Source of the DNA: Apilactobacillus apisilvae
GTDB lineage: Bacteria; Bacillota; Bacilli; Lactobacillales; Lactobacillaceae
DNA: 64,000 nt
Assembly: GCF_023380225.1 (NCBI RefSeq)
Contig: NZ_CP093362.1
Location: forward strand, 186,001 to 250,000
Direction: 5' to 3'
A program made the translations under genes and the position numbers. Under the pieces are notes generated by a model. It did no database searches and was not told the DNA's origin. It saw nothing but the letters and a program-made list of their open reading frames with translations. Position 1 is the first letter of the stretch; every line of letters starts with the position of its first letter. This document shows positions 5,918 through 51,054 of this stretch, piece by piece.

Positions 5918-6229
5918 ATGGTTTCTGAAACTACAGATAAGACATTTGAAAAAGACACTTCTACTGGTGTTACTTTGACAGATTTTTGGGCAACTTGGTG
6001 TGGACCATGTCGTATGCAATCACCTGTTGTTGATCAATTATCAGAAGATATGGGAGACCAAGTTACTTTTAACAAAATGGATGTTGACCAAAATCCGGAA
6101 ACTCCTCAAAAATTTGGCATTATGAGTATCCCAACTTTATTAGTTAAAAAGGATGGTAAAGTGGTGGATAGTATCGTTGGCTATCATAGCAAAGAACAAT
6201 TAGCTAAAATTTTAAAAGAATATTTATAA
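5918..6229 (+). CDS. trxA: Thioredoxin
   Basis: Cytosolic thiol-disulfide reductase of 103 residues with the canonical active site WCGPC (about residue 28) and the conserved cis-proline in SIPTLLV (about residue 70). The start was placed at the ATG behind AAGGAGG, which gives the exact family length; a longer upstream reading would add an unsupported hydrophobic leader. It follows mutS2, as in Bacillus and Lactobacillus. Its last codons overlap on the other strand with the tail of the neighbouring IS1182 transposase frame, because that frame has no stop of its own. Confidence 0.96.
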   Translation: MVSETTDKTFEKDTSTGVTLTDFWATWCGPCRMQSPVVDQLSEDMGDQVTFNKMDVDQNPETPQKFGIMSIPTLLVKKDGKVVDSIVGYHSKEQLAKILKEYL

Positions 6230-7859
6230 TTAGATAAAAAAAGGGGCTGTGACATAAGTCTCTACAAAAATAGGATTTACGTTTTAAATTTAACGTAAAT
6301 CCTATTTTTTTATATAACTTTATAAAATTAATGACTTTCGTCATTAACTTTCTTATATTTAATGCCATTATAGTAAACCCAGCTTCCTTTTTAACCTTAT
6401 CGATTCCCCTAACGGAGAATCGATTGAAACGCAAAGAAGCCTTTAGTCTACCAAAAACCGATTCAACATCTATCTTTCTTTTTGCGTAAATATCACTTGT
6501 TTTTGGTGCCAAAAGCAATGCTTGTTGTTTGTTTTTAAAATATTCCCATGCATAAGTAATACTAATTTTTCTAGTGTTACCAGACTTAGTTAGAGCATAT
6601 GAATTAATGTCTTGATTAAGATCATACTTTTCAGCTTTATATTCTTTAAAATCACGAGTGAATTTATATTTATCAGTTCTTTTACGATAACCATTAAAAT
6701 TAAATCTGATGCCTTTGGGATCAATATAATAATCATCTTTTGAATTATAATACCAATTCATGACCTTACGGTCATCACTTTTCCATTTACGACTTTGTTC
6801 TTTTAACATTGTTCCATAGGGAATTAAAGGAATGTGATTAGTTAGTTTGTCTTCTATAAAACGATAATTACTTTCAGATCCATAACCAGCATCGGCAACA
6901 ATATATTTACCTAAACTATTATTCTTAATTTGTTTATTTAAGAACGGAATTAAAGTACGAGTATCAGTGGGATTTTGATAAATGTCAAAATTAGTTATGA
7001 ATTGTCCACTAGTGGCAATTTGTAAATTATAAGCAGGTTTAAGTTGTCCATTTAACATGGGGTCTTCCTTAATACGCATAAAAGTAGCATCATGATCAGT
7101 CTTAGAATAACTATTACGATTGGAAAATATTTTATTACTTTTTTGATATTCTATTTGTTTACATTTACGAAAACGAAGTTTTCTTTTAATGGCTTTTAAC
7201 TTACGACGCTTTTGTTTATGGGGATTAGGTGATAGTTTTTTATTCTGTTTAATTTGATTATTTAAATCTGCTAAACAATTTTCTAAATGGATGATGATTT
7301 CATCTAACTCACTTGTTGAAATATCAGAGTCATCTGGGAGTTCACCCACATATTTAACATCATTCATGTCATGTAGTAATTTTATAATCGCTTCGCGATT
7401 TAATTTATCGAATCTGATTATATTTTTACGCCAAACAAAAGAATACTTATTAGCATTTGCTAGTATTTTAGTTCCATCAATAAAACTTACATCATCAATA
7501 TAATTATTTTTTCTTAGATATTTAGTTAATTGATTCATGCATTTACTAATTAAATTTTCTGCTTCATCTGAAATCCTAAATCGACAGACTGTTCTATATG
7601 AAGGAAATGAATTCTTAGTTAACCAACGTGCAGGTAAATTTTCTTCTGCCAGCTCACTAATTTGGCGACTACTAAAAATTCCTTTAGAATAGGCAAACAA
7701 GGTTAACTTTAATAGTGACCGTAGGTCGTATTTTCGTGGCCTACCAAATATGTATTTTTCTTCTAAATCAATCATTTCAACAATTTGATTGATAATTTTT
7801 ACTTGATGATTATTTTTAGGTTGCCAATTTTGAATATTTAAAATATAATTAGTACTCAT
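6204..7859 (-). CDS. IS1182-family DDE transposase, without its own stop codon
   Basis: Transposase of about 551 residues catalysing cut or copy of the element. The N-terminal part has the FGRPRKYDLRSLLKLTLFAYS helix-turn-helix region. The DDE residues can be placed in SFIDGTKILANANKYS, VADAGYGSESNYRF and KIDVESVFGRLKASLRF. The ATG behind GAAAGGAAA was chosen over an upstream TTG that overlaps that ribosome binding site. The frame runs through the terminal inverted repeat (read as DLCHSP) and stops only 37 bases outside the element, inside the 3' end of trxA. This copy has no frameshift and may be active. Confidence 0.9.
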   Translation of the reverse strand: MSTNYILNIQNWQPKNNHQVKIINQIVEMIDLEEKYIFGRPRKYDLRSLLKLTLFAYSKGIFSSRQISELAEENLPARWLTKNSFPSYRTVCRFRISDEAENLISKCMNQLTKYLRKNNYIDDVSFIDGTKILANANKYSFVWRKNIIRFDKLNREAIIKLLHDMNDVKYVGELPDDSDISTSELDEIIIHLENCLADLNNQIKQNKKLSPNPHKQKRRKLKAIKRKLRFRKCKQIEYQKSNKIFSNRNSYSKTDHDATFMRIKEDPMLNGQLKPAYNLQIATSGQFITNFDIYQNPTDTRTLIPFLNKQIKNNSLGKYIVADAGYGSESNYRFIEDKLTNHIPLIPYGTMLKEQSRKWKSDDRKVMNWYYNSKDDYYIDPKGIRFNFNGYRKRTDKYKFTRDFKEYKAEKYDLNQDINSYALTKSGNTRKISITYAWEYFKNKQQALLLAPKTSDIYAKRKIDVESVFGRLKASLRFNRFSVRGIDKVKKEAGFTIMALNIRKLMTKVINFIKLYKKIGFTLNLKRKSYFCRDLCHSPFFYLIINILLKF

Positions 7860-8003
7860 TAGTTTTAAGTTTCCTTTCAAGGAGATTTATTTAAACGATA
7901 TCGGTTGGTTCGATATCGTTTTTTATTATACATAAATAACGCTCGTTGGAAAAATTAAATTCCAACGAGCGTTATTTTTTAGAGACTTATGTCACAGTCC
8001 CTT
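6241..8003 (-). mobile_element. IS1182-family insertion sequence, intact copy 1
   Basis: About 1.76 kb bounded by inverted repeats of some 23 bases: AAGGGGCTGTGACATAAGTC on the left and, read on the other strand, AAGGGACTGTGACATAAGTC on the right, with one mismatch. The flanking A-run and T-run make the exact edges uncertain by a few bases. It encodes one transposase on the minus strand and has large palindromes just inside both ends. It lies between the convergent genes trxA and yslB. A second copy with opposite orientation is at 23692-25490. Assignment to IS1182 rests on the size and single DDE transposase layout. Confidence 0.9.
7892..7977. repeat. Two subterminal palindromes of the IS1182 element
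   Basis: Palindrome one is AAACGATATCG...CGATATCGTTT (7892-7922). Palindrome two has 17-base arms, AAATAACGCTCGTTGGA (7934-7950) and its complement (7961-7977), followed by T-runs. A third palindrome near the other end (AATAGGATTTACG...CGTAAATCCTATT, about 6270-6308) lies within the transposase reading frame. They could insulate the transposase from outside transcription or serve as transposase recognition structures. The same palindromes occur in the second copy. Confidence 0.8.
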
Positions 8004-8004
8004 T

Positions 8005-8493
8005 TTATTCTGAATACAAATCAAAGTTTTCTATACGATCATAATCGTTTGCAGGACTTTTAGGATCCATATGTACTCTAATGATAACTTTTCCATTCTT
8101 ATCTTCTTTAGGATTCATTTCAGCTTCAGCAATTACACCTAATTGTTGTTGAGCAATTTGTGCTAATATACCCGCTTCAAACATAAAATCATTATCAGAC
8201 GAAGATTCAATTCTTGCTTTTATAATTTCGCCACTTAAAACCCATTTTATTTCATGTTTATTTTCTGAGATAATTGATAAATCACCCAGGCCGGATTGCT
8301 TAAAAAACAAACTTACATCTAAAGCATCTTTAAGCGGGAATCTTCTTGCAATTTTTTTACCGGCCCAATAAAGAATGCTGTGATTATCATCACCTAATAG
8401 ATCATTAATTAAAATATCCCTTAACAATTCTTGTCCCCAGTAATTACTAGTCTCTTTGTTACCCATTATTTTTTTATAAAGATTATTATTCAT
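8005..8493 (-). CDS. yslB: YslB-like DUF2507 protein
   Basis: Cytosolic protein of 162 residues of the DUF2507 family, function unknown. The family pattern is recognisable: YWGQELLRDILINDLLGDD near the N-terminus, WAGKKIARRFPL, then the C-terminal FMFEAGILAQIAQQQLGVIAEAE region. The ATG behind GAGGTT was chosen; an in-frame TTG five codons upstream is part of that ribosome binding site. The stop codon lies at the very edge of the IS1182 element. In related lactobacilli the gene lies near trxA and murI, so the context fits. Confidence 0.85.
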   Translation of the reverse strand: MNNNLYKKIMGNKETSNYWGQELLRDILINDLLGDDNHSILYWAGKKIARRFPLKDALDVSLFFKQSGLGDLSIISENKHEIKWVLSGEIIKARIESSSDNDFMFEAGILAQIAQQQLGVIAEAEMNPKEDKNGKVIIRVHMDPKSPANDYDRIENFDLYSE

Positions 8494-8666
8494 AGATATT
8501 AACCTCAATTCTTTCTATACACTTTATTATATTATAATTTTTAATAGATTTACATATTTTATGAAATAAATTTTTTGTTGTTAAAATATTAATAAATTTA
8601 TTAATTAAATTATTGTAAAAAATGATACTATATATTTAAAGACTTTTTTGAAAGAAGGTTAACTAA

Positions 8667-9479: not shown

Positions 9480-9481
9480 AC

Positions 9482-10958: not shown

Positions 10959-10970
10959 TTTTATAAAAAA

Positions 10971-23074: not shown

Positions 23075-23075
23075 T

Positions 23076-23690
23076 ATGTTAAAGTGGTACATTAAATTAC
23101 TATTAATTATTATATGTGTAATTAGTGCAGGGATATTTATTATAATTAATGTCCCTTTTTTATATCGGATAATAATCTCATTTTTTGATATAAATTTTCA
23201 TACACATAAGTCTGTTAATATTTTAATGAATAACTATAATAACGTTATTACTTATTTACAATCACCATTTATTACTAATATGCAAACTAGTTTTTTAATG
23301 AATCAAAATGGATTTAATCATTTTAGGGATGTCAAAAATTTAATACTAATAAATAATTTGGTTATGTTTATTTCGTTACCAATAAGTATAAAATTCTATA
23401 TTTCTTTTAAACGTAAAAAATATAGATGGATATTTATTCGCCCCCTAAAAACTTTAAACTATTTAATTTTATTTTTTGGATTGTTTATTCTTTTAGATTT
23501 CAATGATTTTTTTATAAAGTTTCACCAAATTTTTTTCAGAAATAATAATTGGGTTTTTGATGCTAAAAGCAATCCCATTATTTTAGCCTTTCCGGATGAA
23601 TATTTTTTGATTTGTACCGTTTTAATTTTTGTTCTTTTTTTGTTTAGTTGCTTTTATCTTATAAATCGTGGATATAAAGACTTAAAATAA
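23076..23690 (+). CDS. TIGR01906/DUF1461 integral membrane protein
   Basis: Membrane protein of 204 residues with about four hydrophobic segments (residues 5-27, 87-105, 120-140 and 175-198). An extracellular stretch between the first two carries aromatic and Asn residues, as in the DUF1461 family. Function unknown. The start ATG lies one base after the yutF stop, typical of coupled translation; an in-frame ATG 18 bases earlier is possible. It closes the yunD operon, and an IS1182 copy begins right after its stop. Confidence 0.82.
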   Translation: MLKWYIKLLLIIICVISAGIFIIINVPFLYRIIISFFDINFHTHKSVNILMNNYNNVITYLQSPFITNMQTSFLMNQNGFNHFRDVKNLILINNLVMFISLPISIKFYISFKRKKYRWIFIRPLKTLNYLILFFGLFILLDFNDFFIKFHQIFFRNNNWVFDAKSNPIILAFPDEYFLICTVLIFVLFLFSCFYLINRGYKDLK

Positions 23691-23691
23691 A

Positions 23692-25490: not shown

Positions 25491-25539
25491 TTTATTTATT
25501 TCTTCTTTCCTTTATGAAAGCAACTATTCCAGGAATTAA
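23837..25539 (+). pseudogene. IS1182 transposase, frameshifted with internal duplication
   Basis: Compared with copy 1, the segment encoding FGRPRKYDLRSL is tandemly duplicated (about 23950-24021, 12 residues each). One base is also lost at about 24511-24520, where CATAAACAAAAGCG has become CATAAAAAAAGCG, ending the first part at 24535. The second part resumes in the correct frame and is recognisable from 24652 on. As in copy 1, the frame has no stop inside the element and runs to 25539 inside the end of dedA. It is probably inactive unless ribosomes slip on the A-run. Confidence 0.88.
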
Positions 25540-34630: not shown

Positions 34631-36097
34631 ATGATAAAAAATATTAATAATCGTCATATGATTATGTTAGCGTTATTTATGATGACGTTTGTGGGAGAAA
34701 TGGATGTTACTATAGTTTCTACAGCTTTTCCTTCTATTATAGGAGAAATTCATGGTGTATCACTTATGAATTGGATATTTTCTATTTTCTTATTAACCAA
34801 TGCAGTTTCTATACCTATATATGGCAAATTATCTGATCAATTTGGTAGAAAGAAAATACTTATAATTGGACTAACTATCTTTTTGTTAGGAACTATATTC
34901 GCTGGAATTTCTAATAATATAGAAACTTTAATAATATTTCGAGCTATTCAAGGAATTGGTGCTGGATCCATTATGCCACTATCTTATACTATTATTGCAG
35001 ATATCTACTGTATGAATAAAAAGTCTAAAATGATAGGAATAAATGGTGCAATATGGGGAATATCTTTAACCTTAGCGCCTTTATTAGGTGGTCTAATAGT
35101 TGATATTTTTAATTGGCGTTGGATATTTTTTTGGACAGTTCCAATTATATTAATGTCAATCATATTAATTAGTTTTAATTTAAATGAAAATTCTAATTAT
35201 ATTAAACAAAAAGTAGATTATTTAGGCATAATATATTTATCTATTTTATTGTTTTCTGTTATGAATTTGATTCAGTTTATTGATTCTTTGTCTGTTAAGA
35301 TGGATGAAACATATTATTTAATTATTATATCAATTATTTCCTTTATTTTGTTTATTAGAACCGAATATAAATCGAAGAATCCAATTATTCCAATGTCATT
35401 ATTTCATAACAAGACTTTTATTATACAAAATATAGTTTCTCTTTTAATTAGTGGATTTGTTTTTAGTTTAGAAATATATTTACCAATATGGATACAAGGT
35501 ATTATGCGACTATCTGCATCTATATCTGGATTGGTTATTACTCCAATATCTATTTTTTGGATTGCTGGTTCCTTTCTATCTGGTTGGCTATTATCTAAAA
35601 CAAATGCGTTTTACGTAACAATTACCGGTCTAACATGTCTTTTGATATCAGCAATCTTATTATTAAACTTATCAATTTATTTAAGTTTAATAAACTTTGC
35701 AGTTATTTCTGGAATTTGTGGAATCGGTTTTGGATTAACGATAACTAATAGTACTGTTATTTCTCAAAATATTGTTGATAATGATAAATTAGGGGTGGCA
35801 ACTTCTTTTAACAGTTTAAGCAGAATTATTGGTCAAACCTTAATACTTTCTGTTTTAGAAATGGTCACAAATAGAGAAATTAAAATTGGCTCTTTGCATT
35901 CTGATTTAGTAAATGCATCTTCTGTTAATGAACTTATGTACTATAAATCTGACCATCAATTATCTTCAAAAACAATATCGTCTTTTAAAGAGATTTTACT
36001 TAATTCTCTACATTTAGTATTTTTTGTTTGTTTATTGTTGGTTGTTTTAGCATTAATAATTAATTTCTTAGATAAAAAAGTAAAAAGACGTAGCTAA
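34631..36097 (+). CDS. MFS drug exporter, DHA2 (EmrB/QacA) family
   Basis: Cytoplasmic membrane protein of 488 residues with about 14 hydrophobic segments, the DHA2 layout. Motif D1-like FVGEMDVTIVSTAFPSI lies in helix 1, motif A as YGKLSDQFGRKKIL between helices 2 and 3, and the antiporter motif C region GGLIVDIFNWRWIF after helix 5. It probably exports toxic or lipophilic compounds by proton exchange; the substrate is unknown. GGGGGAAAT is the ribosome binding site. It is convergent with ytqB, and the two share one terminator. Confidence 0.88.
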   Translation: MIKNINNRHMIMLALFMMTFVGEMDVTIVSTAFPSIIGEIHGVSLMNWIFSIFLLTNAVSIPIYGKLSDQFGRKKILIIGLTIFLLGTIFAGISNNIETLIIFRAIQGIGAGSIMPLSYTIIADIYCMNKKSKMIGINGAIWGISLTLAPLLGGLIVDIFNWRWIFFWTVPIILMSIILISFNLNENSNYIKQKVDYLGIIYLSILLFSVMNLIQFIDSLSVKMDETYYLIIISIISFILFIRTEYKSKNPIIPMSLFHNKTFIIQNIVSLLISGFVFSLEIYLPIWIQGIMRLSASISGLVITPISIFWIAGSFLSGWLLSKTNAFYVTITGLTCLLISAILLLNLSIYLSLINFAVISGICGIGFGLTITNSTVISQNIVDNDKLGVATSFNSLSRIIGQTLILSVLEMVTNREIKIGSLHSDLVNASSVNELMYYKSDHQLSSKTISSFKEILLNSLHLVFFVCLLLVVLALIINFLDKKVKRRS

Positions 36098-36116
36098 ATT
36101 AGCCACATCTTTTTAC
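36080..36116. terminator. Bidirectional terminator between the MFS gene and ytqB
   Basis: Stem GTAAAAAGACGTAGCTAA / TTAGCCACATCTTTTTAC with two mismatches, flanked by A-run on the left and T-run on the right, so it can act on both strands. This is one of only two convergent junctions in the window not occupied by an IS. Confidence 0.85.
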
Positions 36117-36670
36117 TTTTTTTGTATAGCTATGAGAATAGGTGGTTCGTTAATCTGATTGATAAACTTATATTCTAATACAGAATATTGTTTTTGATTT
36201 AAATTTTTTACAAAACTCAATACACTATTTTTTTCCTCTTTGCCACCTTGATGTCCATAATAAAGCACTAAAACAACTATACCATTTTGTTCTAACAAAT
36301 ATAAACAATCTTTAATGGCTTTTAGTGTAGTATTTGGTTTTGTAATAATATTCTTATTTCCACCTGGTAAATATCCTAAATTAAAAATTGCTGCACTAAT
36401 GTTTTCTTTTACATATTTTTTAATATTTTCATGTCCAGTATTAAATAGTTGAACGTTTTTTAAATCGTTTTCATCTAATCGATTCTGAGTGATTTGAATA
36501 GCTTCTTTTTGTAAATCAAATCCATAAACTTTACCTTTATTTTTAACTAACCTAGCTAAAAATGCAGTATCGTTACCCTTACCAACGGTTGCATCAACAA
36601 CTATGTTACCAGGTTGAACAATGTTTTTTAATAATTGATGGCTATATCTTAGTGATGGTTGTAATTTGAT
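36113..36670 (-). CDS. ytqB: rRNA methyltransferase-like SAM-dependent protein YtqB, no standard start codon
   Basis: Intact frame of about 185 residues of the YtqB family. Motifs are LRYSHQLLKNIVQPG, the SAM site VVDATVGKGNDTAFLARL, YGFDLQKEAI, the catalytic-type motif FNLGYLPGGNKNIITKP, and a C-terminal YYGHQGGKEE. No ATG, GTG or TTG exists in frame before residue 125. The ribosome binding site AAAGGAG (36680-36686) is followed by ATC, ATA and, 9 bases on, ATC at 36670. Starting there gives MKLQPSLRYSHQLLK, which aligns with MKLK-type N-termini in the family. ATA at 36676 is the alternative. Confidence 0.85.
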   Translation of the reverse strand: MKLQPSLRYSHQLLKNIVQPGNIVVDATVGKGNDTAFLARLVKNKGKVYGFDLQKEAIQITQNRLDENDLKNVQLFNTGHENIKKYVKENISAAIFNLGYLPGGNKNIITKPNTTLKAIKDCLYLLEQNGIVVLVLYYGHQGGKEEKNSVLSFVKNLNQKQYSVLEYKFINQINEPPILIAIQKK

Positions 36671-39604: not shown

Positions 39605-41260
39605 ATGCAAGAAAGTAAAGAAAAAATAAATAGCGATCGCCAAACGCAAAGCAAAATGTTAAAAGGGTCTTCATGGATGACTGCTGGTAGCATTTTGTCA
39701 AGAATCTTAGGTGCAATTTACATTATTCCTTGGAGTATTTGGTTTGGTAATCTATATTTTCAAGCCAATGCTTTATACGTTCAAGGATACAATGTTTACA
39801 GTATGTTTTTAATTATATCAATTGCTGGAGTTCCATCGGCAATTGCTAAAGAAGTTGCCCATTATAATGCCCTTAATGAATACGGAATAAGTGTTCGACT
39901 GTATAAGCGGGGGTTGGTTTTATCTGTAACAACTGGAATCTTATGCGCGTTATTTCTCTATTTCGGTGCACCATTATTAGATAATGGTAATCCTAATGTA
40001 ATTCCTGTAATGCATTCATTGTCATGGGCTGTATTAATCATACCAACAATGAGTTTAACTCGTGGTTATTTTCAAGGATTTCAGGATATGGCACCATCAG
40101 CAATATCACAATTTGCGGAACAATTATTTAGAGTTATTTATATGTTAGTTACAGCATTTTTTATAATGAAAGTTGTACATGGTAGCTGGATAACTGCTGT
40201 TACACAATCAACTTTTGCTGCATTTATTGGTTCTGTTGCTGGACTTTTAATACTAGGTGCTTATTATTTAAAACGTAAAGACTATTATAATCACTTAGTA
40301 GAAAATAGTAATAATAAAATTCATGTTAATGCTAATCATCTATATAAAGAAATAGTTAGTCAAGCAGTTCCATTCATCATTTTAGGTGCTGGAATTACTA
40401 TTTTTCAGTTAATTGATCAATATACTTTCTTTGATATTATGAAGATAGCTACTGATTATCCAATGAGTGTTTTAAACAAACTTTATGCTATCTTTGCTGG
40501 TAACGCTAATAAACTAATCATGATTACGATTTCTTTAGCTTCAGCTTTAGCAATTACTGTGGTTCCTTTATTATCAGAAGCCTTTACTAAGAAAGATAAA
40601 GATGGAATTAGTCGTCAATTATCGAATGGATTTGTTTTATTTTCCTTTATTATGATTCCGGCTGCTCTTGGGATGACCGCAGTTGCTGGTCCATTAAATC
40701 GATTATTTTATGGAACTGGATACAATCATTTATCTGCTAACATATTAGCTTTTTCTTCTGTTATTTCTATCTTATTTGGATTATTTACCGTTATTTCAGC
40801 TATGATGCAAGGAATTTCGCAGAATAAATTAGCAGTTAAATATTTTATATACGGAACAATTGCTAAAATAGTTTTCCAAATCCCAATGGTTTTACTATTT
40901 GGAACTTTTGGTCCATTAATTTCATCCGCAATTGGATTCTTAGTTGCCGATGGATTAATTATTCGTTCATTAGATAAACAATTTGGTGTTAGAAGTTATG
41001 AAATGCTAGAAAAAATTAACTGGATTTTGATATTTTCACTGGTTACCTATATTGTAGCTTTAGCATTTGTTTATTTGGGCAATACAGTTGTTGGTCTATT
41101 AATGGAGCCATATGGTAGAGTAGGCAGTGGATTTGTTGTTTCATTAGCAGTGTTAGCGGGAGGCTTTGTATATGTATATCTTGCTTTAAAGAGCCGAGTT
41201 GCTGATTACGTTATTGGACATCAATCTGAAAACTTAAGAAATAAATTACACATTAAATAA
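39605..41260 (+). CDS. Polysaccharide/lipid II flippase-like membrane protein (YtgP type, MOP superfamily)
   Basis: Integral membrane protein of 551 residues with about 14 hydrophobic segments. The N-terminal motif KMLKGSSWMTAGSILSRILGAIYIIPW is that of the YtgP/MurJ-type flippases, and TRGYFQGFQDMAPSAISQFAEQLFRVIY is a second family hallmark. In Bacillus YtgP (MurJ) and Amj are the lipid II flippases, so transport of peptidoglycan precursor is likely but not proven here. The gene lies behind leuS, a common lactobacillus order, and is convergent with nnrD; an IS3 element lies between them. Confidence 0.88.
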   Translation: MQESKEKINSDRQTQSKMLKGSSWMTAGSILSRILGAIYIIPWSIWFGNLYFQANALYVQGYNVYSMFLIISIAGVPSAIAKEVAHYNALNEYGISVRLYKRGLVLSVTTGILCALFLYFGAPLLDNGNPNVIPVMHSLSWAVLIIPTMSLTRGYFQGFQDMAPSAISQFAEQLFRVIYMLVTAFFIMKVVHGSWITAVTQSTFAAFIGSVAGLLILGAYYLKRKDYYNHLVENSNNKIHVNANHLYKEIVSQAVPFIILGAGITIFQLIDQYTFFDIMKIATDYPMSVLNKLYAIFAGNANKLIMITISLASALAITVVPLLSEAFTKKDKDGISRQLSNGFVLFSFIMIPAALGMTAVAGPLNRLFYGTGYNHLSANILAFSSVISILFGLFTVISAMMQGISQNKLAVKYFIYGTIAKIVFQIPMVLLFGTFGPLISSAIGFLVADGLIIRSLDKQFGVRSYEMLEKINWILIFSLVTYIVALAFVYLGNTVVGLLMEPYGRVGSGFVVSLAVLAGGFVYVYLALKSRVADYVIGHQSENLRNKLHIK

Positions 41261-41341
41261 AAAGGTTAAATCCTAAATAGGATTTTGAAGTGACCCCCAA
41301 AAGTTGGACAAGAAATTGTTCGATATTTGGAGGTCATTTTT

Positions 41342-41668
41342 TTGGTTAAATTTAATAGCGAGTTTAAATTAAAATTAGTATTAAAATATTTATCAGGAAT
41401 AGGTTCAACTTCGTTGAACCATGAATATGGTATTAAAGGCAGTGCAACATTACTTTCATGGGTACAAATGTATCAAAAATATGGATTTAAAGGTTTAATT
41501 GTGAAAAACAGTAAACAATCATATTCTTATATGTATAAATTAAAAGTGCTGAACTGGATGAAACTCCACAAAAGTTAATATCCAGAAACAGCACTTCACT
41601 TTAATATATCTTCGCCATCTGCCATATTTATATGGGAATGAAGACTAGAAAACGGGACGCTTAATAAC
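41342..41668 (+). pseudogene. IS3 element A OrfA, broken by two stop codons
   Basis: Helix-turn-helix DNA-binding subunit. The frame starts with TTG behind GGAGGT (VKFNSEFKLKLVLKYLSGIGS) and stops after KLHKS at 41576-41578 (TAA). In the same frame YPETALHFNISSPSAIFIWE continues to a TGA and then RLENGTLNNM runs into the downstream frame. Two nonsense codons thus interrupt the protein; the first looks like a single-base change. Confidence 0.8.
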
Positions 41669-42664
41669 ATGAAAATCAAACATCCACTTAAAAAGAATCT
41701 CACAAAAGACAATATAAAGCAAATAAGAATTTTGGAAAACAAGAATTTGGAATTATCAATAAAGCTAAAATATAAGACTATTATAGATAAACATGGTCAA
41801 ACTACAACTATAAAAATAATAAATAGTTTATTTAAAACAACGACACTATCTAAAATTTTAGACATTTTAGGCATTTCAAGAAGCAGTTATTATTATCATA
41901 GGAAAGCTACGCTTTCTTCTTTTAAACAAGACATTGAATTAAAAGTTAAGCAAGCAGTAAATGAACATAAGACCTATGGATATCGCAGAATTACTGCATA
42001 TTTAAATAACAATGGAAAACATGTAAATCATAAGTGTGTACAAAGAATTATGCAGAAGTATAGTCTACAATGTACTCTATTTAGTAAAAGGAAACGCAAA
42101 TATAATTCATACAAGGGACAAGTAGGACATATAGCATCTAATTTATTGAATGGAAAGTTTAAGTCACAACATTTTGGTCATAAAATAACTACTGATGTCA
42201 GTGAGTTTAGATATGGTCATAATTTAATAAATCAAAAGGTTTATTTATCACCAGTAATGGATCTTTATTCAGATCAAATCATTGCATATAATATTAGTGC
42301 ACATCCAACAGTTAAATTTACTTTAGTGGCTTTAAACAAAGCGTTAAATATTATTAATAATAAAGAAATACAAACTATTGTCCACAGTGATCAAGGGATC
42401 CAATATCAAAGTCATGAATGGGTAAACACGATAAAATCATATAATGCGATTCAATCCATGTCCCGTAAAGGGACATGTTTAGACAATGCACAAATGGAAT
42501 CATTCTTTCACATTATGAAAAGTGAAATGATGAATGTACATTATGATACAAAAGAATCCTTAATCCATGCCATGAAAGCTTGGATTAAGGATTATAATGA
42601 AAATAGAATTAAAGAAAAACTAGGATACCAATCACCAAATCAATATTTGGGATTAATATCCTAG
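41669..42664 (+). CDS. IS3-family transposase OrfB (element A)
   Basis: Catalytic subunit of about 331 residues in the same frame as the broken OrfA. A leucine-zipper-like segment (IKQIRILENKNLELSIKLKYK) is followed by a HTH_21-type region (ISRSSYYYHRK) and the rve integrase core with catalytic residues in ITTDVSEFRYG, VHSDQGIQYQ and QMESFFHIMKSE. The core itself is intact, but without OrfA the element is unlikely to move by itself. Confidence 0.9.
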   Translation: MKIKHPLKKNLTKDNIKQIRILENKNLELSIKLKYKTIIDKHGQTTTIKIINSLFKTTTLSKILDILGISRSSYYYHRKATLSSFKQDIELKVKQAVNEHKTYGYRRITAYLNNNGKHVNHKCVQRIMQKYSLQCTLFSKRKRKYNSYKGQVGHIASNLLNGKFKSQHFGHKITTDVSEFRYGHNLINQKVYLSPVMDLYSDQIIAYNISAHPTVKFTLVALNKALNIINNKEIQTIVHSDQGIQYQSHEWVNTIKSYNAIQSMSRKGTCLDNAQMESFFHIMKSEMMNVHYDTKESLIHAMKAWIKDYNENRIKEKLGYQSPNQYLGLIS

Positions 42665-42698
42665 AAAAATGTTGTCCAACTTTTGGGGGTCAGATCAT

Positions 42699-43529
42699 TT
42701 AACCCTTTTTTTCGTATTTTTTCATAAATTCGGGAATTCTTTGAATAATATGAGTTGGTAAAACTACATATTGATTTTTAGCTAATTCATCGGCAATTGC
42801 ACTATGTAAAAATACAGCTGATAATACTGCATTATATTCATTAGAAAACTGTGCCACAAAGCCGCCAATCATACCAGCTAAAGTATCACCCATACCTCCG
42901 GTTGCTTGTGCTGGAGTACCTCCAGGATTTTTAAAAACTTTTTCTTTATTATAAATTTCAGTGTGATGTGATTTTAATACAACAATACTATCTAACTTAT
43001 TAACAACTTTCATGTTATTATCTTCATTTTGGTCACTTATTTTAATACCTGAAAGTCGTTGCCATTCCATTTGATGGGGAGTAAAAATAATTTGATTATC
43101 AGGTAATGTTAAATCATATTGATTAATCATTGTAATTGCAGAACTATCGATAACTAAAATTTGCTTATTATTAACTAGTTTAAAAACTTTACTTATTATT
43201 TTTAAACTATTTTTATTAGTTCCAAGTCCAGGTCCAATTACTATTACATTAAAAGTAGGAATAAGCTTTTCTAGTTCACTATCATCATTATAGTTAGCGA
43301 ACATTGCTTCTGGAGCATGGTCGTGAAGACTAGTTAAATTAACAGGATCAGTCAAAGTTGTAATTAATCCTGCCCCAGAGTTTAACGCAGCCTCAGTTGC
43401 CATAATAATAGCTCCACCAAAATTAGTATTACCACCGATCAAGCCAACTTTACCATAAGTACCCTTATAACTATCATTAGGACGAACTCTTATAGTATTT
43501 TTAACCACAGACAAATCTATATTTTTCAT
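42699..43529 (-). CDS. nnrD: ADP-dependent NAD(P)H-hydrate dehydratase
   Basis: Metabolite-repair enzyme of 276 residues that converts damaged NAD(P)HX back to NAD(P)H. It shows KGTYGKVGLIGGNTNFGGAIIMATEAALNSGAGL, TPHQMEWQRLSG and the ribokinase-like GGTPAQATGGMGDTLAGMIGGFVAQ. The usual NnrE epimerase domain is absent, as in other stand-alone lactobacillus proteins. GGAGGAT precedes the ATG. The stop codon lies in the arm of the terminator split by the IS3 element. Confidence 0.93.
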   Translation of the reverse strand: MKNIDLSVVKNTIRVRPNDSYKGTYGKVGLIGGNTNFGGAIIMATEAALNSGAGLITTLTDPVNLTSLHDHAPEAMFANYNDDSELEKLIPTFNVIVIGPGLGTNKNSLKIISKVFKLVNNKQILVIDSSAITMINQYDLTLPDNQIIFTPHQMEWQRLSGIKISDQNEDNNMKVVNKLDSIVVLKSHHTEIYNKEKVFKNPGGTPAQATGGMGDTLAGMIGGFVAQFSNEYNAVLSAVFLHSAIADELAKNQYVVLPTHIIQRIPEFMKKYEKKG

Positions 43530-43635: not shown

Positions 43636-45045
43636 ATGATAAACTGGAAGAAACAAGCTAAAAAATATAAAGATGATTATTTAAATGATTTGAAAACATT
43701 AATTTCTATCGATAGTGAACGTGATGATAATAATAGTAGCAAAGATTTCCCACTAGGAAAGGGACCTGCTGATGCTTTAAAAAAATATTTATCGTTTGGT
43801 GAACGTGATGGTTTTAAAACCAAAAATTTAGATAATTTAGTAGGTTATATTGAATACGGTGAAGGTGATAAGACTTTTGCAATTTTAGCTCATGCTGACG
43901 TCATGCCTGCTGGTGAAGGCTGGGATACTAATCCGTTTGAAATGGTTGTTAAAGATGGTAATGCTTATGGTCGTGGTGTCTCTGATGACAAGGGACCGGG
44001 ATTAGCAGCTTATTATGGATTGAAAATTATGAAAGATAATAATATTAAACCTAATTGTAAAATTAGATTTATAGTAGGTACTGATGAAGAAAGTAATTGG
44101 ACAGGAATGAAACATTACTTTGATTTAGAACCCGAGCCTGATTTTGGTTTTTCACCTGATGCTGAATTTCCAGTAATTAATGGTGAAAAGGGTAATACTA
44201 CTTTTGAAAATACTTTTAATAATAATCAATCTCAAAATGCAAGTTGTGTATTAAAAAATTTTGATTCTGGATTACGTGAAAATATGGTACCTCGTGATGC
44301 TTATGCTGATATTTTAGTAAATGATAAAGACGAAATTAATTCCCAATTCACTACTTTTATGGAAGATAATGATTTAAAAGGAAATTCAGAAATCACTGAA
44401 AATGGGATTAAACTACATTTAATTGGTAAATCAGCACATGGAATGGAACCTAAAAATGGAGTTAACTCCGGAACTTATTTAGCAACATTTTTAAGTGAAT
44501 TTTCATTTACTGAAGATGCCGATAATTTCTTAACGTTTATTTCTAAATATTTGCATAACGACTCAAGAGCTAATCATTTAGCAACAAATTATCATGATAA
44601 AATTATGGGTGATTTAACAATGAATGTTGGAATTATGAAATTTAGTCAAACAGACGGTGGATTTATTAATACCAATTTTAGATACCCTAAGGGAATTTCA
44701 GTAGAAAATATTGAAGAGCATTTAAACAATGCAATTTCTAAATTTTCAGGTGTTGTAAAAAATACTGATAATATGGTTCCTCATTATGTGGATCCTGCTG
44801 ATCCAATTGTAAATCGTTTAATTAGTATTTATCGTGATCAGACTGGTGTTAAGAAAGCAGAACCTGAAGTTGTTGGTGGTGGAACTTACGGTAGAATGAT
44901 GAAGCGTGGAGTTGCATTTGGTGCTTTATTTCCATGGACCGAAGATACCATGCATCAAGCTAATGAGTTTCAACCGATCGATGATTTAATATTAGCGATG
45001 TCAATTTATTCTCAATCTATTACAGATTTATCAACTGATAAATAA
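43636..45045 (+). CDS. pepV: Dipeptidase PepV
   Basis: Cytosolic zinc M20-family dipeptidase of 469 residues that cleaves dipeptides from imported peptides. Metal and catalytic motifs are AILAHADVMPAGEGWDTNPF, RGVSDDKGPG, GTDEESNWTGMKHYF, SPDAEFPVINGEKG and, near the end, EDTMHQANEF. AGGGGGT precedes the ATG. It is a single gene, convergent with the deoxynucleoside kinase, with an IS3 element between. Confidence 0.96.
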   Translation: MINWKKQAKKYKDDYLNDLKTLISIDSERDDNNSSKDFPLGKGPADALKKYLSFGERDGFKTKNLDNLVGYIEYGEGDKTFAILAHADVMPAGEGWDTNPFEMVVKDGNAYGRGVSDDKGPGLAAYYGLKIMKDNNIKPNCKIRFIVGTDEESNWTGMKHYFDLEPEPDFGFSPDAEFPVINGEKGNTTFENTFNNNQSQNASCVLKNFDSGLRENMVPRDAYADILVNDKDEINSQFTTFMEDNDLKGNSEITENGIKLHLIGKSAHGMEPKNGVNSGTYLATFLSEFSFTEDADNFLTFISKYLHNDSRANHLATNYHDKIMGDLTMNVGIMKFSQTDGGFINTNFRYPKGISVENIEEHLNNAISKFSGVVKNTDNMVPHYVDPADPIVNRLISIYRDQTGVKKAEPEVVGGGTYGRMMKRGVAFGALFPWTEDTMHQANEFQPIDDLILAMSIYSQSITDLSTDK

Positions 45046-45058
45046 AAAAGGGAGCTAT

Positions 45059-46352
45059 GGAACTGAAGTTATAATATTGAACAGATAAATAAAAGCACTT
45101 TCGATAAAAGTATTATTTTAATTTGGTAAAATAATATAATTCGGAGGTGTTTTTTGTATGACTAATAATAAATATTCATATGAAACTAAACTAGAAGCCG
45201 TTCGGCTTCTTAATGAAGGTGTTCCTGGTAGAAAGATTTGTAAAATACTTGGTTTAAAGAGTGACGGCTTAATTTATACATGGCGGAAATATGTAAGAAA
45301 TGGTGATTATTATCGTTTGAATCAAAAGCCTGGCAAACAATATAAATATAATAAAGGCAATTTAGAAATACCTAGTGACGTCAGAAAAGATATGGAAATT
45401 AAACAAATGAAGTAAGAACTTGAAGTTATAAAAAAATATTTAATCATGGAAGGGCTGTGGTAAATCAAGCTACTATTAAATTAATCGATACTTTCACATC
45501 CAAAATACCTTTAGTTAGGATTTGTAAGTATCTCAATATATCTAGAAGTACCTATTACTATCATAAAACACATGCAGCTCATTTTAATTTAAGTCAGATT
45601 GAACAGGAGATTCAACAACTATGTATAAAAACAAAGTTTTTATATGGTTATCGTAAAATTTATGCACTAATTAATAAGCACTTAAAATGCAGTGTTAGTA
45701 AAGTTCAAAGAATTATGGCTAAATACAATTGGTGGTGTCGTATTAAACGTAAAAGATCTCATCGACCTGGTAATCCGTTCAAACAATTTGATAATATAAT
45801 TAATCGTGATTGGAACATTAGTTTACCAAATCGTAAATTAACCACTGATATCACTTATATTCCTTGCGGAAATAAAATGTTGTACCTCTCTACAATTATG
45901 GATAGTTTTAATTCGGAAATTATTGCTCATAAAATTTCTAATCATCCAAATACCCAATTGGCATTAGATACACTAAATCAATTAGGCTATTTAAGTGGTG
46001 CTATCATTCATAGTGATCAGGGTTCTACTTATACTTAGCGTGAATTTTTTGAATTAGCACGCAAAAAAGGCGCCATCAGAAGTATGTCCCGTAAAGGGAC
46101 GCCAGCTGATAACGCCATCATTGAATCATTTCACTCCAACCTAAAGACTGAAATGATATACACACAAGCTAAACCTAAAGGTTTAGCAGATACTATTAAG
46201 TGTGTGAATAATTATATCAAATTTTTGAATAATAAACGAATTTTAACAAAATTAAGCAACCAATCACCTGTAGAGTACAGGAAATCAGTTGCCCAATTAA
46301 ATAATTAGAAAGCTGCTTTTATTTATTTGTTCAAAATAATAGTTGCAGTTCC
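45059..46352 (+). mobile_element. IS3-family insertion sequence B
   Basis: 1294 bp with imperfect inverted ends (GGAACTGAAGTTATAATATT on the left; GGAACTGCAACTATTATTTT on the right, other strand). The flanks read TAT on both sides, a 3-bp target duplication typical of IS3. The host arms GGGAGCTAT (left) and TATTAGCTCTC (right), with outer A-run and T-run, form a terminator hairpin between pepV and the kinase gene; the element lies at its centre. Nearly identical to element C. Confidence 0.92.
45158..46308 (+). pseudogene. IS3 element B transposase OrfAB, broken
   Basis: OrfA (45158-45415, HTH protein opening TNNKYSYETKLEAVRLLNEG) ends early at a TAA where element C has GAA, removing the last 16 residues. 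OrfB continues from 45457 (GTG) with the integrase core (TTDITYI, HSDQGSTYT) and is cut by TAG at 46036-46038. The last part with catalytic Glu (NAIIESFHSNLKTE) follows in frame to 46308. Two nonsense codons make it inactive. Confidence 0.88.
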
Positions 46353-46367
46353 TATTAGCTCTCTTTT

Positions 46368-47003
46368 TTATTTTCTGATTTTCTTTAATTCATTATCAAT
46401 TTGATTTAATATAATTTCAACATTTTTTTCTTCTGATAAATCGTATTTTTGTAAATCAATTTTCATTTTTGGGCTTGCATCGTAATCTTCGTACCAATTT
46501 TTGTAAGCTGACCACATATTATAATAATAATCTTTTAATTTCGGATTATTATCAAATTGTTCATAATCACGACCACGTTTCTTAATTCTTTTTAAAATGG
46601 TTTCGAAATCAGTTTGCGCATATACCATTAAATCAGGGGCCTTCTTAGGTAAAGCTTCTAATTCTGACATCATACGGTCTAACAATGATAAATAAATCTT
46701 CAATTCTGAATCAGTGATGTTTCCTTCTACATTGTTTTGTTTGGTAAATAATGCATCTTCATAAATAGAGCGATCTAAAATATTATTATCATCAGACAAT
46801 GCCTTCTTGATCATTTCAAAACGTTTATTTAAAAAGTATATCTGTAACAAAAATCCGTATTGTTTTGGATCCTTGTAATATAAAGGCAGAACTGGATTTC
46901 CCCCAACTGGTTCGTAAAAAGCTTTAGTATCAAGATGTTTAGCAATCTTTTCAGTTAGTGTAGTTTTTCCCACGCCAATCATTCCTGCAGTAATTATCAC
47001 CAT
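46368..47003 (-). CDS. Deoxynucleoside kinase
   Basis: Cytosolic salvage enzyme of 211 residues phosphorylating deoxyadenosine or deoxyguanosine. P-loop ITAGMIGVGKTTLTEKIAK lies at the N-terminus, followed by FYEPVGGNPVLPLYY and the DRS motif ILDRSIYEDALF, with the lid-like KRIKKRGRDYEQ. The ATG behind AAGGAG was chosen over a TTG 21 bases upstream. The dAK versus dGK preference cannot be told. Only one gene is present here, whereas some lactobacilli carry a tandem dAK/dGK pair. Confidence 0.92.
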   Translation of the reverse strand: MVIITAGMIGVGKTTLTEKIAKHLDTKAFYEPVGGNPVLPLYYKDPKQYGFLLQIYFLNKRFEMIKKALSDDNNILDRSIYEDALFTKQNNVEGNITDSELKIYLSLLDRMMSELEALPKKAPDLMVYAQTDFETILKRIKKRGRDYEQFDNNPKLKDYYYNMWSAYKNWYEDYDASPKMKIDLQKYDLSEEKNVEIILNQIDNELKKIRK

Positions 47004-47092: not shown

Positions 47093-47099
47093 AATCCAA

Positions 47100-47604: not shown

Positions 47605-49404
47605 ATGAATAGAAAAAGTAAAATTATTTTTGTATTATTTTTGGTGATTTTTCTTATTTGTTTACAAAATAATTTTTTCGTAACAAATGTAAGTGCTAAA
47701 GAAACATTAAAGTCTACAAAAATTAGTGATAATAATCATAATTTATCTACGACTAAAAATATGGATTTTTTAGTCGTAATGAAACCCAGACATAATGATG
47801 AACTAAGTAAATTTGTTTTAAAGTCAAACAATAAAAAATTCATTTCACCTGATGCTTTCAGCAAAAAATATGGTCAAAGTGGATATAAGATTAATAATAT
47901 AATAAAATACTTAAAAAAATATCATTTATCTACAAAATTATACAAAGGGAACATTGTGTTGAATGTCTCTGGTAGTATGCAAAATATAAAGAAGGCACTT
48001 CATTTTGAATCAAAAAATGTACATAAAGATGGAGTTGATATAACAGCTCCTAATCATAAATTGTCTTTACCAAAACGTTATAACAAATATATTATTGATA
48101 TCATTGGATTTAACAATTATGATAATATCAACAAGAAAGTTAATAACATTGATACTAATAAACCAGAACAATTAAAAAAGGGTGGACCTGATAAATTCAT
48201 TAATCAATATAATATATCGCCCTTATATAAAGATTATTCTAAAAATTCTTCTATTGGAATAATTTCTTTTGGCAGTTTTAATAAATCTGATGTTAGTCAT
48301 TTTTGGTCAAAAATGAAAGTTCCAAGTTCAAATAATCGTATTTATATTCATAAGCAAAAAAATAGTAAGATGATTAACAATAGTGATGAAACAGCAATGG
48401 ATTTAGAACAAGCAGGAACAATCGCACCAAAATCTAAAATAAACGTTTATTTATCATCACCCACAGTTTTTGGGATGTTAAATAGTTTATCTGAATCAAT
48501 TAGCGATAATAAGTCAGATACACTTTCATTAAGTTGGGGAATTAGTGAAGCAGAAATTCAAAAAGAAATTAAATTAGGCATTTTGAGCAAACATTATAAT
48601 AAAATTATTAACTTGATTTTGGAACAAGCTGCTGCTCAAGGTATTAGCTTTTTTAATGCATCGGGTGATAATGGAGCATATGACGGAATTTCTTCAGGAA
48701 TAACTAAACTAACTGTTGAAACGCCATCTTCATCTCCATACGTGACGTCAGTTGGTGCTACAAGTTTGCCAATTAATTATCGAGTTAACAATCAACAAAT
48801 ATCTATTGATAAAGAAAGAGCATGGTCTAATGACTTTTTGTATCCTTACTTTAATCTTTTAAAAATATATAATGAAAATAGCTCAATTTTTATTCCTAGT
48901 TATTTTGCTGGATCAGGTGGTGGATTTAGTGAGATGAATTCATTACCTAGTTATCAAAAAAATGTTAAGGGTGTCGGTACTTTTAATGCCAAAGACTATT
49001 GGAATATGAATAGTGGTTATGCTCAACAATATAGTACTCCTCAAACTGTCACTGGTAGAAAAACAGGAAGAAATTTGCCTGATATTGTGGCTAATGGAGA
49101 TCCGCAAACTGGTTATTTAGTTTATAATAACGGTAAATGGAACATTGATGGGGGTACCAGTATTGTTACTCCACAAATTGCTGGTGTTAATTCTTTAATG
49201 ATTTCCAAATCACATCATCGCATGGGACTTTGGAATCCTAAAATATACGATTATGCTAAGACTAGTAAAACGCCTTTTAAATCTATTAATGATAAAGATA
49301 ATAACAGTAATTTGTACTATACAGGACAGTCAAATACTATTTACAATCAAGCAACCGGTTTAGGAACGGCCGATTATTATAAATTATTTAAACTAATGAA
49401 ATAA
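47605..49404 (+). CDS. Secreted S53 family (sedolisin/kumamolisin) serine peptidase with pro-domain
   Basis: Exported protein of 599 residues. A signal peptide (basic NRKSK, hydrophobic core, VSA-K cleavage near residue 31) is followed by a pro-kumamolisin activation domain (about residues 45-155) and the peptidase domain. Catalytic motifs are DETAMDLEQAG (Glu and Asp about residues 261 and 265), FNASGDNGAYDG (oxyanion Asp, about 354) and DGGTSIVTPQIAG (Ser, about 517). Near the C-terminus NQATGLGTADYYKL holds the calcium-site type motif. The start ATG lies 6 bases behind AAGGGTGAT. Acidic-pH protein cleavage is expected from the family; the natural substrate is unknown. It is flanked by two direct IS3 copies with mscL and the kinase. 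Confidence 0.92.
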   Translation: MNRKSKIIFVLFLVIFLICLQNNFFVTNVSAKETLKSTKISDNNHNLSTTKNMDFLVVMKPRHNDELSKFVLKSNNKKFISPDAFSKKYGQSGYKINNIIKYLKKYHLSTKLYKGNIVLNVSGSMQNIKKALHFESKNVHKDGVDITAPNHKLSLPKRYNKYIIDIIGFNNYDNINKKVNNIDTNKPEQLKKGGPDKFINQYNISPLYKDYSKNSSIGIISFGSFNKSDVSHFWSKMKVPSSNNRIYIHKQKNSKMINNSDETAMDLEQAGTIAPKSKINVYLSSPTVFGMLNSLSESISDNKSDTLSLSWGISEAEIQKEIKLGILSKHYNKIINLILEQAAAQGISFFNASGDNGAYDGISSGITKLTVETPSSSPYVTSVGATSLPINYRVNNQQISIDKERAWSNDFLYPYFNLLKIYNENSSIFIPSYFAGSGGGFSEMNSLPSYQKNVKGVGTFNAKDYWNMNSGYAQQYSTPQTVTGRKTGRNLPDIVANGDPQTGYLVYNNGKWNIDGGTSIVTPQIAGVNSLMISKSHHRMGLWNPKIYDYAKTSKTPFKSINDKDNNSNLYYTGQSNTIYNQATGLGTADYYKLFKLMK

Positions 49405-49520
49405 AAAAGCAATGACAATTAGGAACTGAATTTATAATATTGAACAGATAAATAAAAGCACTTTCGATAAAAGTATTATTTTAATTTGGTAAAATAATAT
49501 AATTCGGAGGTGTTTTTTGT

Positions 49521-49826
49521 ATGACTAATAATAAATATTCATATGAAACTAAACTAGAAGCCGTTCGGCTTCTTAATGAAGGTGTTCCTGGTAGAAAGAT
49601 TTGTAAAATACTTGGTTTAAAGAGTGACGGCTTAATTTATACATGGCGGAAATATGTAAGAAATGGTGATTATTATCGTTTGAATCAAAAGCCTGGCAAA
49701 AAATATAAATATAATAAAGGCAATTTAGAAATACCTAGTGACGTCAGAAAAGATATGGAAATTAAACAAATGAAGGAAGAACTTGAAGTTATAAAAAAAT
49801 ATTTAATTATGGAAGGGCTGTGGTAA
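49521..49826 (+). CDS. IS3 element C OrfA
   Basis: Intact 101-residue helix-turn-helix subunit (SYETKLEAVRLLNEGVPGRKICKILGL) with a Lys/Glu coiled coil at the end (IKQMKEELEVIKKYLIMEGLW). GGAGGTG precedes the ATG. OrfB overlaps its last 7 bases, the usual IS3 arrangement where a -1 shift makes the fusion. Confidence 0.9.
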   Translation: MTNNKYSYETKLEAVRLLNEGVPGRKICKILGLKSDGLIYTWRKYVRNGDYYRLNQKPGKKYKYNKGNLEIPSDVRKDMEIKQMKEELEVIKKYLIMEGLW

Positions 49827-50671
49827 ATCAAGCTACTATTAAATTAATCGATACTTTCACATCCAAAATACCTTTAGTTAGGATTTGTCATTATCTCAAT
49901 ATATCTAGAAGTACCTATTACTATCATAAAACACATGCAGCTCATTTTAATTTAAGTCAGATTGAACAGGAGATTCAACAACTATGTATAAAAACAAAGT
50001 TTTTATATGGTTATCGTAAAATTTATGCACTAATTAATAAGCACTTAAAATGCAGTGTTAGTAAAGTTCAAAGGATTATGGCTAAATACAATTGGGGGTG
50101 TCGTATTAAACGTAAAAGATCTCATCGACCTGGTAATCCGTTCAAACAATTTGATAATATAATCAATCGTGATTGGAACATTAGTTTACCAAATCGTAAA
50201 TTAACCACTGATATCACTTATATTCCTTGCGGAAATAAAATGTTGTACCTCTCTACAATTATGGATAGTTTTAATTCGGAAATTATTGCTCATAAAATTT
50301 CTAATCATCCAAATACCCAATTGGCATTAGATACACTAAATCAATTAGGCTATTTAAGTGGTGCTATCATTCATAGTGATCAGGGTTCTACTTATACTTA
50401 GCGTGAATTTTTTGAATTAGCACGCAAAAAAGGCGCCATCAGAAGTATGTCCCGTAAAGGGACGCCAGCTGATAACGCCATCATTGAATCATTTCACTCC
50501 AACCTAAAGACTGAAATGATATACACACAAGCTAAACCTAAAGGTTTAGCAGATACTATTAAGTGTGTGAATAATTATATCAAATTTTTGAATAATAAAC
50601 GAATTTTAACAAAATTAAGCAACCAATCACCTGTAGAGTACAGGAAATCAGTTGCCCAATTAAATAATTAG
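49820..50671 (+). pseudogene. IS3 element C OrfB with in-frame amber codon
   Basis: GTG-started integrase subunit. The core holds KLTTDITYIPCG and IIHSDQGSTYT, then a TAG at 50399-50401, then REFFELARKKGAIRSMSRKGTPADNAIIESFHSNLKTE with the catalytic Glu in the same frame. One nonsense codon separates the second Asp from the Glu. The same TAG occurs in element B, so it predates the duplication or the codon is read through. Confidence 0.88.
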
Positions 50672-50733
50672 AAAGCTGCTTTTATTTATTTGTTCAAAAT
50701 AATAGTTGCAGTTCCTAATTGTCATTGCTTTTT

Positions 50734-51054
50734 TCATTGTTCATTTATTTTTTTCAACATAGATTCTGCAATTGCCCATCTTCTGGCTTTTTTACGAAGT
50801 TCCATATTAGTAATCTTATTTACAGTCATTTTTTCAAATGCAGCACTATAATCAATTGAAACCGTGTCTGCAGGAATCTTAATCGGTTCTAACATTCTAG
50901 TTTTGAAAGCTTTTTTAGAATCTTCCATTGCATCTTTGATTGATTCCATAGTTTCATCGTAGTTATGTGAAATTAAACTTTTAGCAAAATTTAATTCTGA
51001 TCCTTTGTATGAACTATAAATGAACATTACTAAGTTAAGTGTTTTTTCTTTCAT
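50734..51054 (-). CDS. Hypothetical protein, 106 residues
   Basis: I do not recognise this protein. It is mostly helical and soluble, opening MKEKTLNLVMFIYSSYKGSELNFAKSL, with repeated acidic-basic helices (ETMESIKDAMEDSKKAFKTRM) and a basic C-terminal helix MELRKKARRWAIAESMLKK. A ribosome binding site AAGAAGATG lies before the ATG. Its stop is next to the terminator arm that holds IS3 element C. Codon use resembles its neighbours, so it is likely a real gene of the lineage. Confidence 0.7.
   Translation of the reverse strand: MKEKTLNLVMFIYSSYKGSELNFAKSLISHNYDETMESIKDAMEDSKKAFKTRMLEPIKIPADTVSIDYSAAFEKMTVNKITNMELRKKARRWAIAESMLKKINEQ

Follow-up and report, generated by a model that had tools for sequence, protein, structure and literature searches.

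The insertion sequences (IS) present in a 64,000-nt stretch of the Apilactobacillus apisilvae genome (the window, which is part of a 1.55-Mb genome and whose coordinates are used below unless a genome position is indicated) are most probably hairpin-targeting elements, the main target of which in this genome would be the intrinsic terminator; judging from sequence, we give this reading a probability of about 0.92. Terminators were recognized by form and position, that is, as an A-tract, a stem-loop, and a T-tract next to gene 3′ ends. Transposase and domain models bear out the five elements, the two families, and the minimum of three types proposed in a preliminary description of the window: two elements belong to the IS1182 family and three to the IS3 family, representing three types altogether. 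As stated there, all five (5/5) are located between convergent genes, and none is found in the window within a gene, a co-directional gap, or a divergent gap.

Insertion points of the window elements

Each of the three IS3-type copies in the window splits one hairpin, and excision of the element together with the target-site duplication (TSD) restores the order A-tract, stem-loop, T-tract (3/3), the duplicated bases being the loop or part of an arm. IS3-A (41286..42697, + strand), with ends TGAAGTGACCCCC...GGGGGTCAGATCA and TSD TTT, is inserted between the flippase gene and nnrD. The left part of the terminator that it splits lies at 41259..41285 (+) and the right part, which includes a TSD copy and overlaps the nnrD stop codon, at 42698..42709 (+); the joined flanks give AAAAAGGTTAAATCCTAAATAGGATTTAACCCTTTTTTT. 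An IS3-C copy (45059..46352, + strand; GGAACTG...CAGTTCC, TSD TAT) with interrupted transposase frames separates pepV from a kinase gene, its flanks reading AAAAAAGGGAGC-TAT on the left and TAT-TAGCTCTCTTTTTT on the right, with the 5′ arm of the split terminator at 45040..45058 (+) and a TSD copy followed by the 3′ arm at 46353..46373 (+). Another IS3-C copy (49422..50715, + strand), carrying a TAG codon in orfB, occupies the loop of a hairpin between the gene of an S53-type protease and a hypothetical gene, the 5′ and 3′ arms being located at 49403..49421 (+) and 50716..50734 (+), respectively. Here the flanks read AAAAAAGCAATGAC-AATT and AATT-GTCATTGCTTTTTT, and the duplication is AATT (4 bp) if one more base is assigned to the tips, so that they read A..T, or 2 bp as scored by our script.

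Assignment to the IS3 family is based on the transposase model, the rve/DDE domain, and the 3–4-bp TSD. Intact copies elsewhere in the genome match the IS3 family model NF033516 with 293.2 (IS3-B), 272.3 (IS3-D), and 263.3 (IS3-C orfB) bits at a cut-off of 160, and IS3-A is assigned through the Pfam rve domain (PF00665) alone (57 bits, cut-off 32.6). An in-frame TAG in orfB is common to three of the eight IS3-C copies (window positions 46038 and 50401, and genome position 1050296), so that broken copies seem to have spread, perhaps aided in trans by intact ones.

Both IS1182 elements are flanked by an A-tract and a T-tract and have no target duplication. Element 1 (6243..8001, − strand; ends GGGGCTGTGACATAAGTC / GACTTATGTCACAGTCCC) lies between trxA and yslB (DUF2507), with the putative A-tract and T-tract remnants of a bidirectional terminator at 6236..6242 and 8002..8006, and element 2 (23694..25488, + strand) lies between the Lit (DUF1461) gene and dedA, with an A-tract on the left (23689..23693) and a T-tract on the right (25489..25493); no strand is assigned to these tracts. 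The transposase of element 1 scores 313.7 bits against the NCBIfam IS1182 model NF033551 (cut-off 270), which places it in this family, and the Pfam domains found in the IS1182 transposase are PF01609, PF13751, and PF05598. At both sites the stem known from sister species is gone and the A- and T-tracts alone are left; loss of the host inverted repeat and lack of a TSD are the features of IS1272-like hairpin replacement, and at both sites the IS1182 element has replaced what was, by its form, a terminator hairpin. Throughout the genome, all eight IS1182 copies lie between an A- and a T-tract, and no direct repeats are seen at their tips; their ends were pattern-matched on both sides in seven of the eight, the eighth copy being split by IS3-B. 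Element 2 shows, in addition, a short internal tandem duplication near its start and a split transposase frame (23816–25539).

The empty sites that the preliminary description had called for are provided by other Apilactobacillus species, in which IS-free terminators occur at all five junctions. A terminator-like hairpin without an IS is present between pepV and the kinase gene in six of six congeners, between the S53-type protease gene and the hypothetical gene in five of six (in the sixth, the junction was not located), and between the flippase gene and nnrD in four of six, the other two having unread gaps of 698 and 718 nt. In one sister species (G006), the stem at the S53/hypothetical junction is identical (AAAAAAGCAATGACATTTTAGTCATTGCTTTTT). 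An A-stem-T terminator is found at trxA/yslB in seven of seven congeners (by folding) and at Lit/dedA in three of three (by eye).

The elements themselves also carry terminator-like hairpins. Near both ends (within about 145 bp) of IS3-A, IS3-B, IS3-D, IS3-E, and IS1182, that is, in four of the five element types, an inward-facing hairpin followed by a T-tract is present. In IS1182 element 1, hairpins with an 18-bp stem are located at the transposase-proximal end (7934..7977, − strand; element positions 25–68) and at the other end (6266..6309, + strand; element positions 24–67), and in IS3-A at the left end (41291..41336, + strand; element positions 6–51) and near the right end (42555..42593, − strand; positions 105–143 from the right end). 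With such hairpins at both ends, both neighboring genes should remain terminated and insertion should be cheap; read-through into the transposase gene is likewise predicted to be blocked.

Genome-wide census and relatives in other hosts

Our census, built on rve and DDE_Tnp_1 transposases, comprises 29 elements, namely 21 full IS3-type copies (one IS3-A, four IS3-B, eight IS3-C, and eight IS3-D/E) and eight IS1182 copies, which occupy 28 sites because one of the IS3-B copies is nested in an IS1182 end. No ISL3- or IS256-type elements were found in the genome, the search having covered rve, DDE_Tnp_1, ISL3, and IS256 types. Partial or remnant copies near 389.4, 390.5, 602.8, 739.8, 1041–1043, 1123.1, 1166.9, and 1452.8–1453.1 kb, together with shorter matches, were left unclassed.

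For 15 of the 21 IS3 copies, the insertion point falls within a strict hairpin, defined by a stem score of at least 9 and an A- or T-tract. Hairpins of this kind account for 0.81% of the fetched non-IS DNA (518,936 nt; P = 2e-27) and for 8.9% of the intergenic DNA (P = 6e-12). A TSD of 3–4 bp is present in 19 of the 21 copies, the exceptions being the copies at 49422 (2 or 4 bp) and at genome position 1050296 (none). The 21 targets differ in stem sequence and are thus not a repeated extragenic palindrome of the REP type; most are terminator-like hairpins of individual genes. The position of insertion within the hairpin depends on the element. Joining occurs 4.0–7.5 bp from the hairpin axis in 11 of the 12 scored IS3-A/B/D copies (14.5 bp in the twelfth) and at 0, 0.5, 0.5, 1, and 5 bp in the five scored IS3-C copies, four of which thus fall at 0–1 bp (IS3-A/B/D vs. 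IS3-C, Mann–Whitney P = 0.005). Fourteen of the 21 IS3 copies are identical to at least one other (all four IS3-B copies, IS3-D/E groups of six and two, and a pair of IS3-C) and are therefore recent; without exception, these fourteen have entered either a terminator-like hairpin or the end of a different IS element. Among the identical IS3-B copies, two are nested, one at genome position 145812 in the hairpin of an IS-end-like remnant, which itself seems to be placed in a terminator, and one at genome position 361518 in the left end of an IS1182 element.

With regard to gap type, 21 of the 28 sites are convergent, four co-directional, and two divergent, and one is in a TetR-type gene (genome position 1205928), the one clear gene disruption; this regulator gene adjoins a CbiQ-type transporter gene. 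The gene-calling script, run with the IS excised, returned 20 convergent, four co-directional, and two divergent sites and two in genes, because the hairpin at 41286 overlaps the nnrD stop codon by 2 nt and the site was scored as lying in a gene; we count it as convergent, hence 21/28. Of the 46,404 intergenic bases fetched, 3,371 (7.3%) belong to convergent gaps. A length-weighted random intergenic distribution, named in the preliminary description as the result that would speak against its claim, therefore does not describe the data (21 of 27 intergenic sites convergent; binomial P = 2e-19). The four co-directional sites lie 5–32 nt from a gene 3′ end.

Hairpin siting recurs in other hosts. 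A contig scan with the IS3-B and IS3-D transposases gave 80 loci, 17 of which were not analyzed, mostly because they were partial or cut at contig ends (one, L152, had no convincing ends). Loci L303–L306 likewise did not enter the analysis. In Firmicutes and Mollicutes, 22 loci were tried (21 from the scan and one from elsewhere); ends and a TSD were recognized in 13, and 10 of these 13 have a hairpin score of at least 9, compared with 1.0% of random points in the same loci. These ten relatives come from Apilactobacillus, Lactiplantibacillus, Paucilactobacillus, Loigolactobacillus, Neobacillus, and the Mycoplasmatota strain zrk6. Among 42 more distant loci, mostly from Actinobacteria, ends and a TSD were found in 26, of which 15 are in a hairpin, as against 0.6% of random points. 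Among four close relatives of IS3-C, ends were recognizable in three, each of them inserted in a hairpin, at offsets of −0.5, 0, and 0.5. For 31 multi-copy IS3 loci from six other genomes of Lactobacillaceae, the ends could be matched in 28 and a TSD recognized in 23; 15 of the 28 copies fall within the most stable 5% of random points from the same locus. This comparison leaves out two G139 loci (L325 and L326, other ends) and the 'IS3 G215' group (seven loci, other ends, 1.6-kb shared segment). The latter group (L307–L313) represents an element of 1.6 kb, present in multiple copies, that encodes an IS3-type transposase and has ends like GGAGCTGGGTCA...TGTCACACTCCC, which resemble IS1182 ends; A- and T-tracts adjoin some of its copies. 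For IS1182 relatives, 22 loci were inspected, seven with ends close to GGGGCTGTGACATAAG and the rest with different or doubtful ends, and 20 more copies were compared; we draw no claim about their targets.

Mechanism, alternative explanations, and known systems

We propose that the transposase, or folding of the target DNA, would recognize the terminator inverted repeat by its shape, possibly as a cruciform or a single-stranded hairpin, given that no stem sequence is common to the targets. IS3-C would join across the loop and IS3-A, IS3-B, and IS3-D in an arm about 4–7.5 bp from the dyad axis, each IS3 element duplicating 3–4 bp at joining, and IS1182 would take out the hairpin and settle between the A- and T-tracts left behind. 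That convergent junctions are hit most would be due, at least partly, to their shared bidirectional terminators, which are longer A-stem-T palindromes. If the hairpins terminate transcription, as their form suggests, and termination is preserved by those in the element ends, the fitness cost of insertion is expected to be low.

Several observations weigh against this reading or limit the contrasts on which it is built. The strict detector was written after the junctions had been seen, and folding energy alone (70-nt windows, nested copy at 361518 left out) discriminates less well than the stem count, with 12 of 20 sites ranking in the top 10% when set against 1,500 intergenic controls. The IS3-C copies at genome positions 1050296, which has no TSD, and 1011625 are in no clear hairpin, the copy at 1205928 is in a weak palindrome inside the TetR-type gene, that at 956802 forms a hairpin only if G-T pairs are allowed, and the IS3-B copies at 145812 and 361518 sit in ends of other IS elements. 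Empty-site comparison covers two of the eight IS1182 copies, both in the window. The hairpins in element ends were read in one copy per type and without a shuffled control, and the IS3-C ends, in the one copy read, have no terminator-like hairpin of comparable strength. Many relatives lack a hairpin or recognizable ends or TSD, and the random points used for them include coding DNA, which flatters the contrast, since it is then partly one of intergenic versus coding DNA. There is no clean negative control among IS3 elements, many multi-copy loci being in hairpins as well, and the controls are therefore random points; an intended contrast set of other IS3 elements yielded ends in five of 18 loci and a TSD in one, which is in a hairpin. 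Finally, the convergent excess is greater than the availability of terminators explains: strict hairpins number 14 convergent to 0 co-directional when occupied by IS3 and 38 to 74 when empty (Fisher P = 1.3e-6), ratios that describe about a third of the genome, as the fetched stretches were picked around IS copies.

The preliminary description had offered two causes, targeting of terminator hairpins or selective purging of all other sites. Targeting is strongly supported by the position within hairpins, the set offset, the identical copies, the relatives, and the IS-free sister sites. Purging may add to it; as the sole cause, with random insertion and survival only of the copies at convergent 3′ ends, it is rejected, and we regard it as very improbable. 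An insertion presumably does least harm in a convergent gap, and the distribution of hairpins with both tracts (IS3-occupied, 13 convergent to 0 co-directional; empty, 36 to 37; Fisher P = 4e-4) is compatible with purging. However, selection for harmless sites needs no insertion within a hairpin at a fixed distance from the dyad, about half of convergent intergenic DNA lies outside hairpins, and sets of identical copies also show hairpin siting. Given the set offset of each element, the identical copies, and the same behavior in other hosts, targeting is most likely the main cause, with some further loss of co-directional insertions perhaps coming afterward. Whether all terminators are hit and co-directional insertions are then lost more often seems to us evenly balanced. 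The 74 empty and 0 IS3-occupied co-directional strict hairpins point in this direction, as do the 39 copies placed in other genomes (20 convergent, 10 co-directional, 0 divergent, and nine unclear), but four co-directional sites do exist in this genome, the stretches were chosen around IS copies, and co-directional hairpins are weaker on average than convergent ones, so that target quality may account for part of the difference; at the highest stem score, the contrast between convergent and co-directional both-tract hairpins falls to P = 0.07.

Recognition of terminating RNA polymerase or its RNA hairpin, rather than of a DNA palindrome, would also fit targets that are mostly terminator-like and an IS1182 element that keeps the flanking A- and T-tracts. 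We consider it unlikely, as the elements have also hit a hairpin resembling an IS end (145812), the end of an IS1182 element (361518), and a weak palindrome in the TetR-type gene (1205928), and one of the seven TnSha1 sites reported by Furi et al. (PMC4923244) is in a coding region, agrC. That the hairpins belong to the IS ends and not to the target could be suspected from the IS1182 ends, which read A-tract/GGGACTGTG...CAGTCCC/T-tract; this is scarcely credible, since the arms at IS3 sites vary from copy to copy though the element is identical, and these sites hold IS-free terminators in sister species. For the same reason, palindromes as part of the IS3 ends were rejected.

Both halves of the hairpin-targeting reading have precedents. 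Group IIC introns are mobile elements that use terminator hairpins as targets; they are ribozyme retroelements, the chemistry of which is unrelated to that of these IS. In IS1272/TnSha1 of the IS1182 family, terminator hairpins are reported to be replaced by the element (PMC4923244, PMC5678879), and RNA-seq is stated to have confirmed the terminator nature of five target hairpins (PMC4923244). On that description, the elements studied here share with IS1272/TnSha1 an IS1182-family transposase, the lack of target duplication, and replacement of a hairpin or terminator. They differ in being Lactobacillaceae elements with eight of eight copies between A- and T-tracts and in having, in the copy examined, hairpins with 18-bp stems and T-tracts inside both ends. 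IS3-family elements that insert in REP palindromes are also known, and ISPsy8 is reported to enter a predicted hairpin on its symmetry axis, with a 3-bp repeat (PMC1525189, citing IS1397 and ISKpn1). IS1397, ISKpn1, and ISPsy8 thus resemble our IS3 elements in inserting within palindromes (REP/PU). In contrast, the targets presented here are terminator-like hairpins of unrelated sequence and not one repeated palindrome, IS3-A/B/D favor an arm 4–7.5 bp from the axis, and relatives with such sites occur in Lactobacillaceae, Neobacillus, a Mycoplasmatota strain, and Actinobacteria. Escherichia coli IS150 (about 37% identity), which is not known to target terminators, is among several named IS3 elements recovered as plasmid matches. 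Hairpin replacement by IS1182 and REP targeting by IS3 elements are therefore already known, and what appears to be new is the targeting of intrinsic terminators by IS3 elements, of which we found no report in the open-access literature (subscription papers and ISfinder notes being outside the scope of the search).

On balance, we lean toward a broader interpretation, in which a large IS3 lineage found across Firmicutes, Mollicutes, and Actinobacteria would be specialized on terminators through hairpin shape and a set distance from the axis, with an exchange of terminators, one bidirectional terminator being destroyed and two inward-facing ones supplied. The unrelated IS1182 elements would have reached this niche by convergence, which would place almost all of the known IS load of a genome in terminators at little cost. 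Such siting, visible in two unrelated transposase families at once, would provide a clear rule for where the mobile elements of a genome land and why they may be tolerated. With the hairpin rule, sites of insertion become predictable from sequence; the rule also points to shape-reading by ordinary DDE transposases and could provide natural tools for placing DNA between genes while leaving these intact. A further lesson is that IS density at convergent junctions should not be ascribed to selection alone.

Unoccupied convergent junctions

The seven convergent junctions counted in the preliminary description hold for protein-coding genes, and an eighth is added if RNA genes are counted, between a UvrA-like gene (51148–53463, + strand) and tRNA-Leu (53505–53590, − strand). 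All three IS-free junctions also carry hairpins and therefore look like unhit targets: a strong bidirectional hairpin at racemase/DUF1516 (59253..59294, no strand assigned; minimum free energy −23.0), a strong hairpin on folding at UvrA-like/tRNA-Leu, and an imperfect A..T hairpin at MFS/ytqB (36074..36123, no strand assigned), read by eye and folding weakly (−5.7). Next to the last of these, the open reading frame (ORF) list gives only the C-terminal 61 amino acids of a YtqB-type rRNA methylase (36113–36298; PF06962), the upstream part of which may lie in another frame or be without a listed start. The gene previously labeled DUF1461 (23058–23690) matches, in Pfam, Lit (PF07314), a lipoprotein intramolecular transacylase.

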